Source: Methyloceanibacter sp. (GTDB taxonomy: Bacteria > Pseudomonadota > Alphaproteobacteria > Rhizobiales > Methyloligellaceae). From it: 8,054 nt of DNA. The DNA lies in assembly GCA_025449615.1 (NCBI GenBank), contig JANWJA010000070.1:1-8054 (forward strand). Direction: 5' to 3'. A program made the translations under genes and the position numbers. The notes beneath the pieces are model-generated. The model was not told the origin of the DNA, made no database searches, and saw only the letters and a list, made by a program, of their open reading frames with translations. Of the stretch, positions 3,497 to 6,423 are shown in pieces (positions within the stretch are counted from its first letter, which is position 1; every line of letters starts with the position of its first letter).

Positions 3497-4006
3497 CGTC
3501 ACCGCATTCTCTTCGTTTGTCTCGGCAATATCTGCCGCTCGCCCATGGCTGAGGGCGTGTTTCGGCGCCTGGTCGCCGAGCGGGGCTTGAGCGATTGTTT
3601 CGAGATCGACTCTGCGGGCCTCGGCAACTGGCACGAAGGCCAGGCGCCGGACAATCGCGCGCAACAAGCTGCGATGCGACGTGGCATCGACATCTCGACG
3701 CAGAGCGCGCGGCAACTGCGGCCGGACGATTTTTCCCGCTTCGACTTGATCCTGGCGATGGATGCCTCCAATCACGGAGATCTGCGACAGCTGTCGCCGA
3801 AGCGCGGGCACGGAAAGATCCGCCAGTTTCTCGAGTTTGCGCCGCAGACCGGGACGCGCGACGTGCCAGACCCGTTCTTCGGTGAAGCAGAAGGGTTCGA
3901 TCATGCGCTCGATCTGATCGAGGCGGCCGCGGAGGGTCTGCTCGAAGCTCTGGCGCCGAGAGACAGCGTCGCCGCCAAGCCGGACGCTCAACGCTCCAGC
4001 GGATAG
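3491..4006 (+). CDS. Low-molecular-weight protein tyrosine phosphatase
   Basis: A 171-residue cytoplasmic phosphatase that removes phosphate from tyrosine residues through a cysteinyl-phosphate intermediate. The P-loop CLGNICRS at residues 10-17 gives nucleophile Cys10 and Arg16, and DVPDPFFG at 124-131 supplies the general acid Asp127. ILAMD (87-91) is another family landmark. The fold normally ends near residue 155; the last 15 or so residues (RDSVAAKPDAQRSSG) are a polar tail encoded where the gene overlaps the convergent thpR. No tyrosine-kinase or exopolysaccharide gene lies in the window, so its partner is unknown; it may equally be an orphan metabolic phosphatase. The start ATG 3491 places the P-loop at the family-typical distance from the N-terminus and lies within an inverted repeat. 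The short 45-base gap behind the DUF2865 gene allows co-transcription. Confidence 0.93.
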   Translation: MTRHRILFVCLGNICRSPMAEGVFRRLVAERGLSDCFEIDSAGLGNWHEGQAPDNRAQQAAMRRGIDISTQSARQLRPDDFSRFDLILAMDASNHGDLRQLSPKRGHGKIRQFLEFAPQTGTRDVPDPFFGEAEGFDHALDLIEAAAEGLLEALAPRDSVAAKPDAQRSSG

Positions 4007-4844: not shown

Positions 4845-5615
4845 TTACGTTTTGGATTGCGAAACTAGTGTTCCGGCGTTTCGCCCTGAGTGATCGTGAT
4901 CGCTTTTTGAAAGCGAAACAGCGCAATTCTTCAGGTGGCTGACCAAGCCTTGGGCTAGCAAATTTGCTGCTTTTCCCGATGGACCATGCCGGCTCAGCCG
5001 CCTCACGGTATCGATATTGCTCTCCCACAGGCTGAAGAGGCCTTCGACGTCAGGGGCATCGCTGATACATTTGCGCAGGGCCTCCGCAAATTTCTGCGGA
5101 TCGTCGAAGACTGAGCCTGCGTCACGGACATTGGTATGCAACATCCATTGTTGGGCTTCTGCCTCGGCGCGGCCTCTCGACTTTCGTACTCCTGATTGCT
5201 CGCGATCATAAAGGGCAAGACCAAATGGATTTCCGAAGGTGGCCAAAGCGCGTTTGGTAGCGTCGGTCTCCGCCCCCTTGAGCGCAAACTCATGAGCCTG
5301 TCCCGGCGTATAAGCTGTACCCTCGGCAGTCCCGGAGCCCTCCCGGACAATCGTGACATCGCCTGCACGCACGCTCACTCGAACTTTTGCCGTGTAAGCC
5401 GCGGAGTAGCGTGCGTTGCTCTTTCCGGTCCATACACAAGTGGTTGAGATCGTCCGCCGATCCCAGGCGTCGTGCCCGAAAATCCGGTTGGCTTCGGCGA
5501 TGACATGCCACCCCTCCACATAGTGGAGCGTCGTTCCCTCGGCCTTGCGCGTCCTAACGTGCTTGCCGTCAAGCTTGGCATTGAGCAGCCGCAGTTGGGC
5601 ATCGGTGAACTGCAT
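4845..5615 (-). CDS. Rad52/Rad22-family single-strand annealing protein
   Basis: A 256-residue protein whose N-terminal 137 residues follow the Rad52 annealing domain (PF04098). LHYVEGWHVIAEANRIFG (30-47) parallels the eukaryotic YIEGxxVIxxANxxFG block. YSAAYTAKVRVSVRAG (70-85) and VREGSGTAEG (90-99) are the beta segments. ETDATKRALATFGNPFGLALYD (116-137) parallels EAVTDxLKRALRxFGNxxGNxxxD. Such proteins form rings that anneal complementary DNA strands; in bacteria they are mostly phage-borne. A linker follows, then a second conserved-looking helical segment at about 170-205 (FAEALRKCISDAP, LFSLWESNIDTVRRL), resembling small C-terminal modules on other phage annealing proteins. ATG 5615 overlaps the stop of the Gp157 gene (TGATG) and has AAGGA seven bases upstream; GTG 5618 is the alternative. 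Local GC is lower than in the flanks. Single-strand annealing is inferred from the family. Confidence 0.82.
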   Translation of the reverse strand: MQFTDAQLRLLNAKLDGKHVRTRKAEGTTLHYVEGWHVIAEANRIFGHDAWDRRTISTTCVWTGKSNARYSAAYTAKVRVSVRAGDVTIVREGSGTAEGTAYTPGQAHEFALKGAETDATKRALATFGNPFGLALYDREQSGVRKSRGRAEAEAQQWMLHTNVRDAGSVFDDPQKFAEALRKCISDAPDVEGLFSLWESNIDTVRRLSRHGPSGKAANLLAQGLVSHLKNCAVSLSKSDHDHSGRNAGTLVSQSKT

Positions 5616-6115
5616 CACTTTGTCCTTACGACGAGTACGGGTTTTGGATTGCTCAGGAGAGCGCCGGGAATTTCGAGGCCTCGTTTGAGGCTCGCGAGCA
5701 TTGATTGCCGATCGATCTTGGGGGGCTGCGGGATCCAGTAGGTTGCCGGGATCGCATCCTCAGCGCTGATAATAAGCGACGGAGTGCCCGGTCTTGTCGA
5801 TGCGGTAAAATCCGGCTGTTCCAATTTGCTGAGTCCGGCTTCTTGCATCGCGTCAAGCGCCAGCTGCCGTTTCTTCGTGCCCCTGATCTCGATCCGCTCA
5901 AGCCGGAACTTCATCTCCTCGATGCGCTCACGGAGACCCAAAATGAGCGCCTGATCGATCAACGCCGACCGGATCACGCCGGCCAAAATCTCGGGAAGAT
6001 CGGTCAGCCCCTCGAGCGTATCTTTGATTGTCTCGGCATCGGCGTCGGGAAACTCGTGCAGAAGCCGGTCGCGAATCCAGTTATGGAGCTTTGCTTGGTG
6101 TTTGACGGGATGCAT
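5615..6115 (-). CDS. Siphovirus Gp157-family protein
   Basis: A 166-residue protein matching the Gp157 family (PF05565) over most of its length. An acidic N-terminal helix ETIKDTLEGLTDLPE (28-42) is followed by a long charged coiled-coil-like helix (about 45-90, with RERIEEMKFRLERIEIR). Then come AMQEAGLSKLEQPDFTASTRPGTPSLII (89-116) and the domain ending IPATYWIPQPPKIDRQSMLASLKRGLEIPGALL, which is the family's (P)xxY...KxxIKxxLKxGxxxPGAxL pattern. Gp157 genes sit in the recombination regions of many siphophages, often beside annealing proteins. The family description mentions increased phage resistance in streptococci, but no biochemical role is settled. I chose ATG 6115 (GGGAG eight bases upstream); an upstream start at 6151 would lie before the likely transcription start. 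The stop TGA overlaps the ATG of the Rad52-like gene, implying coupled translation. Confidence 0.85.
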   Translation of the reverse strand: MHPVKHQAKLHNWIRDRLLHEFPDADAETIKDTLEGLTDLPEILAGVIRSALIDQALILGLRERIEEMKFRLERIEIRGTKKRQLALDAMQEAGLSKLEQPDFTASTRPGTPSLIISAEDAIPATYWIPQPPKIDRQSMLASLKRGLEIPGALLSNPKPVLVVRTK

Positions 6116-6133
6116 CTGACCACTCCCTACTAA

Positions 6134-6154
6134 TGTGTGTACACTGTACACACA
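6134..6154. promoter_or_regulatory. Perfect palindromic operator between the Xre and Gp157-Rad52 genes
   Basis: TGTGTGTACA (6134-6143) and TGTACACACA (6145-6154) are exact reverse complements separated by a single C. Each arm contains its own smaller palindrome, TGTACA (6138-6143 and 6145-6150). The site lies in the 77-base divergent spacer and covers the -10 box of the minus-strand promoter and a possible -10 (TACACT, 6140-6145) on the plus strand. A dimeric Xre protein encoded next door is the obvious ligand, giving repression of the Gp157-Rad52 operon and probably autoregulation. The symmetry is seen directly; the binding partner is inference. Confidence 0.75.
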
Positions 6155-6171
6155 AAGGAATGGGGTGTCAA
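6143..6171 (-). promoter_or_regulatory. Sigma-70 promoter of the Gp157-Rad52 operon
   Basis: On the minus strand a perfect -35 box TTGACA (6171 to 6166) is followed by a 17-base spacer and TACAGT (6148 to 6143), a 4-of-6 match to the -10 consensus. Transcription would start near 6136, leaving a leader of about 20 bases before ATG 6115. The -10 box is inside the palindromic operator, so a bound repressor would exclude RNA polymerase. Confidence 0.65.
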
Positions 6172-6192
6172 CTGTGAGGGGCTCTTTTGGCC

Positions 6193-6423
6193 ATGATTAC
6201 TCGTGAACAGGTGCGGATGGCGCGTGCGGCTCTCGGCTGGGGGGTCCGTGATCTGGCGAAGGAAGCTGGGATTGCCGCGAATACCGTGAGCAGGTTTGAA
6301 AACGGCTCAGGTGCCAGGCCCGAGACGCTCAAGGTCATTCAGGAAGCCCTGGAGAAGGCCGGGATCGTGTTTATTCCACCGGAGGGGAGACACGGTTCAG
6401 GAGTGCGGATCAAGGCCAGGTAG
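6193..6423 (+). CDS. Small Xre-family helix-turn-helix regulator
   Basis: A 76-residue protein consisting almost only of an Xre/Cro-type DNA-binding domain. After MITREQVRMARAALGW come DLAKEAGI (helix 2, about 20-27) and the recognition helix AANTVSRFENG (28-38). The ending LKVIQEALEKAGIVFIPPEG...GVRIKAR belongs to a subgroup of small Xre regulators common in alphaproteobacteria, whose members usually have GWSQ where this one has GWGV. It diverges from the Gp157-Rad52 operon across a perfect palindrome and is the likely repressor of that operon and of itself. Start choice: ATG 6193 gives the family-typical N-terminus, but its GAGGGG (6176-6181) is 11 bases away. TTG 6187, two codons earlier, has the better spacing of five bases and may be the true, weak start, which would suit a low-level repressor. 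Confidence 0.88.
   Translation: MITREQVRMARAALGWGVRDLAKEAGIAANTVSRFENGSGARPETLKVIQEALEKAGIVFIPPEGRHGSGVRIKAR

Follow-up and report, generated by a model that had tools for sequence, protein, structure and literature searches.

An 8,054-nucleotide stretch of Methyloceanibacter sp. (GenBank assembly GCA_025449615.1, contig JANWJA010000070.1), hereafter the window, contains three adjoining genes with phage relatives, encoding a Rad52-family single-strand annealing protein, a Gp157 protein and, on the opposite strand, a small Xre/Cro-type protein. It is probable, if far from assured, that these genes make up an HNH-less version of a free-standing annealing cassette under repressor control, belonging to a family that arose from one phage recombination module and spreads horizontally. 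This reading is based on the conserved gene order, a palindrome lying over a promoter-like site, the grouping of the cassettes on one branch in each of two gene trees, domains that in relatives are under purifying selection, the occurrence of cassettes at different intergenic sites and the absence of any portal gene within 20 kb in the genomes searched.

The cassette in the window and its presumed switch

The annealing gene, in its HNH-less form, occupies positions 4845-5618 of the reverse strand and encodes 257 amino acids (PF04098, E 1.1e-31). Directly upstream on the same strand, the Gp157 (Sipho_Gp157) gene at 5615-6115 encodes 166 amino acids and matched PF05565 with an E value of 6.7e-17, at 62.4 bits against a cut-off of 28.6. 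Its stop codon overlaps the Rad52 start as TGATG, and a stop/start overlap was present at all 11 of the Gp157-Rad52 junctions printed. The third gene, at 6193-6423 of the forward strand, encodes a 76-residue helix-turn-helix (HTH) protein of the Xre/Cro type (HTH_3, E 4.4e-8; HTH_31, E 2.3e-7) that is presumed to be a repressor; its translation may instead begin earlier, at TTG 6187. The three phage-related families of the original prediction were all matched by Pfam, and the window has the layout of the cassettes described below, in which Gp157 overlaps Rad52 and a small Xre gene diverges from the pair.

As had been claimed, the Xre gene diverges from the coupled genes across a perfect palindrome. 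This sequence, TGTGTGTACA-C-TGTACACACA, lies at 6134-6154 (centre 6144) in the 77-bp spacer between Xre and Gp157, has 10-bp arms separated by 1 bp and is presumed to be the Xre operator. A sigma-70-like promoter on the reverse strand (TTGACA-17-TACAGT, 6143-6171) faces gp157-rad52 and has its -10 element inside the palindrome. When the spacer was shuffled 2000 times, arms reached 9 bp in four trials and 10 bp in none, whereas shuffling of the whole window gave an arm of at least 10 in 15 of 200 trials; the palindrome is therefore notable by its place and not by its length alone. One promoter-like site was found between 4700 and 6600 against 0.8 expected by chance, and the best promoter-like site of the Xre-Gp157 spacer starts with TTGAC in 13 of 16 loci, a count that carries no chance control.

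Spacer sequences and Xre recognition helices vary between loci. In the one close comparison, a similar Xre keeps its half-site: GTACAGTRTACACA, which is related to the palindrome of the window, occurs in two loci (L076 and L077) whose Xre proteins are 70-71% identical to that of the window. Phage immunity systems likewise pair differing operators with matching repressors. The Xre profile yielded only three other matches in 510 kb of cassette and control loci.

The window Rad52 protein matched chains of yeast and human RAD52 in phmmer searches (E 2e-16 and 5.7e-11), with a TDxxKRxL stretch aligned between them. A model of a Rad52-HNH relative (L054), of middling confidence with a predicted local distance difference test (pLDDT) score of 70, matched RAD52 in Foldseek at E 3.6e-10 with target TM-scores of 0.39-0.85. 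The Gp157 protein matched phrog_253, labelled 'Mu Gam-like end protection', at E 6.7e-20, and its AlphaFold2 (AF2) model (pLDDT 88) comprises a long helix and a small alpha/beta end.

Recurrence, ancestry and selection

Scanning of the genome_contigs collection with the window Rad52 returned five relatives, each with Gp157 upstream and a divergent Xre. Among 297 genomes of the order, PF04098 was found in 10 and PF05565 in 12, the two being adjacent in eight; PF04098 was present in seven of 385 genomes of the class, two of them counted already, and in seven of 17 from the genus. Judged from the arrangement of their genes, seven of the ten Rad52 genomes of the order carry cassettes (G001, G019, G078, G195, G271, G288 and G293) and three carry prophage-like copies among short, dense, phage-like genes (G080, G145 and G039). 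With each genome counted once and the window included, 19 non-redundant cassette loci were obtained; L061-L066 and L072-L074 duplicate other loci, and L071, a Rad52 fragment of G313, was not counted as a cassette. Gp157 lies directly upstream of Rad52 in 17 of the 17 loci where this is visible. A divergent Xre stands at nearly the same offset in 16 of the 19, was not found in L069 and has its position hidden by contig ends in L068 and L070; genes were called by our own script, which missed the Xre in several loci including the window. Gp157 adjoining PF04098 with a divergent small Xre, the arrangement for which a search had been proposed, is accordingly a recurring unit.

In most relatives the annealing protein is longer. 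A C-terminal HNH domain (DUF968, PF06147) is fused in frame to Rad52 in 14 of the 19 loci, out of frame in L051, absent from the window and L002, and hidden in L055 and L077. Ten aligned fusions measured 330-443 amino acids and had invariant CxxC...HH...C..HH residues, with PF06147 matched in L054. The five nearest database relatives of the window Rad52 (72-100% identity, 256-268 amino acids) also lack PF06147, so the loss looks old in this lineage and not like a recent break; further matches without the domain occur lower in the list, some of which may be cut by contig ends. The window Rad52 query scored 7240 of 7999 matches, with domain make-up seen for the best 120, and the fusion query scored 6031 of 8000, of which the best 120 listed all carry both domains. 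Because it grouped with the family in both the Rad52 and the Gp157 trees, the window is treated here as a lineage of the Rad52-HNH cassette family that would have lost its HNH domain.

Phage homologues are distant. Identity to named phages reached at most 42% for Rad52 (37 records) and at most 34.5% for Gp157 (among 40 of 53 records listed), and identities in viral contigs were 31-56%. The viral scans took the best 80 of 337 and the best 80 of 133 matches, with nine contigs in both, giving 137 stretches from 128 contigs (80 + 57). Gp157 stands just before Rad52 in 17 of the 80 and 12 of the 57, and neither an HNH fusion nor a divergent Xre was found in any of these best-scoring stretches (0/80 and 0/57).

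Of the 123 rows in the Rad52 tree, 17 were cassettes, 104 viral and two prophage; the cassettes form one branch, on their own side, with support of 100/97; this branch was recovered in 100% of 200 bootstrap trees, in a bootstrap that had not settled and with several long branches present. Rows shorter than 120 amino acids and identical rows were excluded, which reduced the 137 viral stretches to 104 rows, and the tree is without L055 and L070. The Gp157 tree of 51 rows (16 cassette, without L004, and 35 phage) likewise shows one cassette branch (100/96), to which the nearest phage row is L097. This contig encodes Gp157, Rad52 and, two genes further on, a separate HNH gene, all in a row, and an arrangement of its type is a plausible ancestor of the fused cassette.

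Pairwise ratios of nonsynonymous to synonymous substitution (dN/dS) came to 0.071 and 0.073 in the two Rad52-domain pairs compared, 0.016 in one HNH pair, 0.185 and 0.090 for Xre, and 0.202 in one Gp157 pair. The Gp157 value for the pair L003/L004 was invalid, since the L004 copy is interrupted by an in-frame stop and its codon alignment was out of register; the two genes differ at 48 positions, mostly silent. For L076/L077 synonymous divergence was uneven, at 0.10 for Gp157, 0.72 for Xre and 1.65, near saturation, for the Rad52 domain, so that this pair looks mosaic and its values are rough. The Gp157 genes of the pair are nearly identical, and the Xre and Rad52 genes have diverged much more at silent sites, as if recombination had taken place inside the cassette.

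Chromosomal setting, companion genes and a sister cassette

Insertion could be bracketed by comparison of relatives. L003 and L004 share a position, with 91% identity over 3.9 kb. Genomes G078 and G195, two species of one genus, share a colinear block with 79-91% DNA identity in which the cassettes lie at different sites: in G078, 2.8 kb including the cassette separates an FAD-binding gene from a CarS-like one, and this site is closed, at 69 bp, in G195; G195 in turn has 5.3 kb with the cassette and a sulfatase gene between phosphoesterase and DAO genes, where G078 is closed (102 bp). The G288 cassette lies between the same FAD gene and CarS-like fragments. The proposal that alignment with relatives would reveal the exact ends of the insert thus succeeded as far as bracketing in G078 and G195; base-exact ends and duplications were beyond resolution, the spacers being too diverged.

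The claim that the window holds no integrase, terminase or structural gene agrees with the Pfam scan, in which none of these families was found in the seven of 11 main window genes that it covered; the other four are presumably TrmH-like, QOR, YkvA and DUF2865 genes. The trio has a GC content of 0.57-0.61 against 0.62-0.64 in five neighbour genes. No tRNA was found in the window, and the longest words shared across the bounds of the trio were 7 bp, hence no target duplication was seen. The patatin gene of the window is 70% identical to that of G001 (M. superfactus, the genome of L001) and its LigT gene 74% to that of G144, matches that mark the organism as a relative of Methyloceanibacter within the Hyphomicrobiales. 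LigT is present in eight of eight relatives, and in the seven neighbourhoods read, QOR, YkvA, low-molecular-weight (LMW) phosphatase and LigT always occur together, accompanied by the TrmH-like gene in six and by the gene labelled DUF2865 in none. A gene of about 347 amino acids, absent from the window, adjoins LigT in all seven (72-96% alike; in two frames in L091), and neither a cassette nor a patatin gene stands beside LigT in any of them. The window cassette therefore sits at a synteny breakpoint, between the QOR-YkvA-LMW phosphatase-LigT block and the patatin gene; an exact empty site was not found among the seven neighbourhoods. The LMW phosphatase (forward) and LigT (reverse) genes overlap tail to tail by 19 bp, at 3988-4006.

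Neighbouring genes were scanned in pools, in which 66 to 117 unrelated proteins were aligned together per family search, members are unnamed and the families read were the first 25 of 29 (set A3), 52 (A4), 76 (A5) and 36 (A8). Among 222 neighbour proteins of at least 75 amino acids from 17 of the 18 non-window loci (sets A3 and A4; L077 had none), the PHROG scan gave one large terminase (L068), a small-terminase-like family, transposases and sugar genes. Set A5, which covered 91 of the 157 proteins of the prophage-like loci and none from L059 or L060, gave integrase, portal and similar families for L048, L049, L056, L057 and L058. Because each pool was read for its first 25 families, integrase (PF00589) and portal (PF04860) were searched again in whole genomes, covering 16 of the 18 other cassette genomes (all but G685 and the genome of L002). 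Within 20 kb on the same contig a portal gene was found in none of the 16 and an integrase in one, G019; both 20-kb flanks were on the contig in six (G002, G003, G019, G195, G293 and G420), the contigs of the other ten being too short for the full test, and five of these six had no integrase. The trio was found mostly outside prophages, and neither confinement to intact prophages nor an integrase with structural genes just outside the unit, the patterns that would have spoken against the original prediction, was observed in the loci searched.

A second design was recovered with a DNA pattern for the HNH core, which returned 15 stretches of the viral collection. Thirteen of these encode YqaJ followed by an ERF protein, with HNH in the ERF frame in 12 and in another frame in L187; L176, L179 and L180 look like one element. 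PF09588 and PF04404 with PF06147 were matched in the four of each protein scanned, and a divergent Xre is visible in six of the 13. In the order survey, full-length ERF-HNH genes were present in G116 (three copies), G274 (two) and G039 (one) and broken ones in G220 and G257; any match was found in 27 of 297 genomes, many of them to the HNH part or the ERF part only. The three full-length genes of G116 are on three contigs (L275, L278 and L280). Xre was seen in four of the eight ERF-type genome loci, and 66 neighbours from six of these loci gave one integrase and transposases among the families listed. G136 and G267 encode ERF without HNH within about 12 kb of the large terminase gene TerL and look like phage. 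Judged by their predicted genes, the two designs share the Xre switch and HNH and differ in annealing protein and partner. The HNH domains fused to ERF and to Rad52 also fall together in a tree, away from most phage HNH domains and with weakly supported interleaving; this tree has too few columns, and a long branch misplaced L097 in it.

Companion genes were surveyed in 42 loci, comprising the 19 Rad52-type loci, the eight ERF-type genome loci and 15 viral-collection contigs. A protein with the motif STGPKTxxGKxRSxxNAxxHGL, or a fragment of it, occurs in 14, a ParB-methyltransferase in 12, a gene we take to be DUF5681-like in 12 and a terminase in 10; none of these occurs in 13 control chromosomal loci (217 kb; all of Methyloceanibacter type and so unmatched for the ERF loci). 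Of the companions, the 137 viral Rad52 stretches contain only the ParB-methyltransferase, in 13. Twelve of the 19 Rad52-type loci, the window included, are without any companion in the stretch examined. Of the ten terminase cases, nine belong to contigs of the viral collection, where a terminase makes it likelier that a contig is classed as viral; among the genome loci there is one in 27. Terminase genes are present in 45 of the 297 genomes of the order and none lies on the contig of a cassette at a distance of up to 20 kb; in G001, G078, G195, G220 and G293 they are on another contig or more than 0.8 Mb from the cassette. The order survey does not support TerL as a general companion.

The STGPK protein is encoded at L054:11755-12273 (reverse), L001:11526-12107 (forward), L051:10557-11168 (reverse), L052:8518-9467 and L075:5045-5489. 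The L054 copy has no Pfam or PHROG match, the protein is present in four of 17 genomes of the genus, in each case at most about 4 kb from the cassette, and its occurrences in the 42 loci are often fragments. A small-terminase-like HTH protein is encoded beside the cassette at L054:11365-11745 (reverse; phrog_309) and L001:12151-12531 (forward), the unnamed member of this family in the pooled scan being taken as that of L001. A small membrane-type protein lies downstream of Rad52-HNH at L054:8929-9240 (reverse), L001:11166-11357 (forward) and L075:9733-9873 (forward). The ParB-methyltransferase and DUF5681-like genes, in some cases with a large terminase, form a unit adjoining annealase-HNH cassettes at L280:5653-8095 (forward), L183:3126-6471 (reverse) and L068:6169-9435 (forward), which possibly represents a packaging-type partner of these cassettes.

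Origin and possible role of the cassettes

According to the mechanism that we propose, a small Xre dimer bound to the palindrome would block the gp157-rad52 promoter until a cue such as DNA damage, incoming DNA or phage lifted repression, whereupon Gp157 and Rad52 would be made together by coupled translation. Gp157 might then shield or engage DNA ends in the fashion of Gam, Rad52 rings would anneal complementary single strands without RecA, and the HNH nuclease of most relatives may trim or nick the joined product. The window lineage would dispense with this last step and retain protection and annealing. With such a cassette the host, or the cassette itself, would be able to recombine DNA that shares limited homology, whether broken or incoming.

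Several observations weigh against a free-standing, selected cassette family of this kind. Only the window, L051 and L054 have conspicuous palindromes, and for 13 of the 16 spacers an inverted repeat as good as the best one arose in 9 to 44% of shuffles. The fold search with Gp157 gave no significant PDB match and no Gam chain, which does not exclude Gam, and hhalign of Gp157 against a single Mu Gam sequence returned a probability of 4.4%; Gp157 is presumed to be a DNA-end or nuclease-inhibiting partner, and its link to Gam is an unconfirmed PHROG label. Over the full length of Rad52-HNH, linkers included, dN/dS for L003/L004 was 0.29 against 0.11 and 0.14 for two neighbours. Broken or shortened copies exist (a stop in the L004 Gp157, a frameshift in L051, and the window and L002 without HNH), and these fit slow decay too. 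The differing sites could reflect old presence followed by separate losses, and the phage rows of the trees were picked by likeness to the queries, so other phages could fall inside the cassette clade. The G019 cassette has integrases at a distance of 13-15 kb and a tRNA-Phe at about 6.5 kb. L068, which splits first on the cassette side of the tree as drawn with a midpoint root, adjoins a ParB-methyltransferase, a DUF5681-like gene and a large terminase, and its early split and packaging-type neighbours make it conceivable that the fusion originated in a phage or in an island resembling one. Independence of the unit, as originally inferred, is supported in that most loci lie without a recognisable prophage and weakened because several have small-terminase-like, ParB-methyltransferase or terminase neighbours. 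Function is read from sequence and predicted fold, and binding, annealing and expression are predictions.

These neighbours make it possible, although we lean against it, that the window holds what remains of an island or satellite derived from a phage, namely the core of a larger mobile set of ParB-methyltransferase, DUF5681-like, terminase, STGPK and small-terminase-like HTH genes of which the rest was lost. Companions in 10-14 of 42 cassette loci against 0 of 13 controls, the small-terminase-like gene that L054 and L001 have next to their cassettes, and all three packaging-type genes in L068 would be explained in this way; the origin of nine of the ten terminase cases in the viral collection, the single case among 27 genome loci, the remoteness of terminase genes in five cassette genomes and the 12 of 19 Rad52-type loci without companions argue otherwise. 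A related and more tentative proposal is that alphaproteobacterial chromosomes harbour repressor-switched 'annealase islands' with neither integrase nor capsid, built of interchangeable parts (Xre, Gp157 or YqaJ, Rad52- or ERF-HNH, sometimes a packaging set), which would move between intergenic sites by their own annealing or with helper phages and act as satellite-like parasites or in gene capture by the host.

It is unlikely that the cassette is an anti-phage or anti-plasmid device, derepressed on infection, whose Gp157 and Rad52(-HNH) attack or scramble incoming DNA. Its patchy distribution (PF04098 in 7/17 genomes of the genus), varied recognition helices and spacers, nuclease fusion and thousands of database matches, with domain make-up taken from the best 120 of each search, would suit such a role. 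However, no PADLOC model matched Rad52, Gp157, Rad52-HNH, ERF-HNH or YqaJ at E 0.01 in a search confined to the cassette proteins, Xre gave only generic HTH matches, and the window copy has no nuclease. Simple decay of a prophage, with three genes left from a recent integration, appears very improbable. The genes all belong to phage families, a few of the copies are broken and the GC content of the trio is below that of its neighbours, yet for the family as a whole this origin, raised in the original prediction, is rejected by the Rad52 and Gp157 trees, in which the cassettes are one branch apart from the sampled phages, by low domain dN/dS and by the viral table, where fusion and divergent Xre occur in 0 of the 137 best-scoring stretches. 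In addition, the trio is kept together in 16 of 19 loci and 12 of 19 are without companions.

The free-standing annealing cassette that we favour resembles known recombination systems in part. In Lambda Red and RecET an end-processing or end-guarding protein is joined to an annealing protein under a repressor. The cassette has the same combination of end-handling protein, annealing protein and repressor, and its sister has the YqaJ exonuclease with ERF; it differs in having a Rad52 core in place of Red-beta or RecT, a fused nuclease and a non-phage setting, and the Gp157-type cassette has no exonuclease. The cassette protein is like yeast and human RAD52 in sequence and predicted fold and differs in the C-terminal half, where RAD52 carries its RAD51-binding region and the cassette protein has HNH or nothing. 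In Firmicutes phages, as PMC8093625 describes, a Gp157 or Gam homologue lies directly upstream of an Erf-type annealing gene. These Gp157-single-strand annealing protein and Gam-Erf modules share with the cassette the placing of Gp157 beside the annealing gene; as described there, they form part of a phage region in which ssb or HNH has a gene of its own, whereas the cassette is chromosomal, has a divergent Xre and usually an HNH fusion. Fusions of DUF968/HNH to Erf and Rad52, the same pairings of PF04098 and PF04404 with PF06147, are named in one sentence of PMC4118853, whose account of them, in the part available, mentions neither the cassette, the Xre switch, the Gp157 or YqaJ partner nor the chromosomal setting. 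The domain fusion (PMC4118853) and Gp157 or Gam beside phage annealing genes (PMC8093625) are already in print. The free-standing, Xre-switched chromosomal cassette, its single branch, the loss of HNH and the ERF sister were not found in the open-licence literature searched, a body that excludes preprints.

Rad52-HNH and ERF-HNH proteins might serve as recombineering candidates in hosts with poor tools. If the cassette family is as proposed, annealing systems, mostly known from phages, would also form a separate class on chromosomes, one that is maintained, moves horizontally, is equipped with a switch of its own and comes in two parallel designs. It would then offer a way to ask whether bacteria keep Lambda Red-like recombination for themselves and what triggers it, and whether such cassettes explain gene capture in Alphaproteobacteria.

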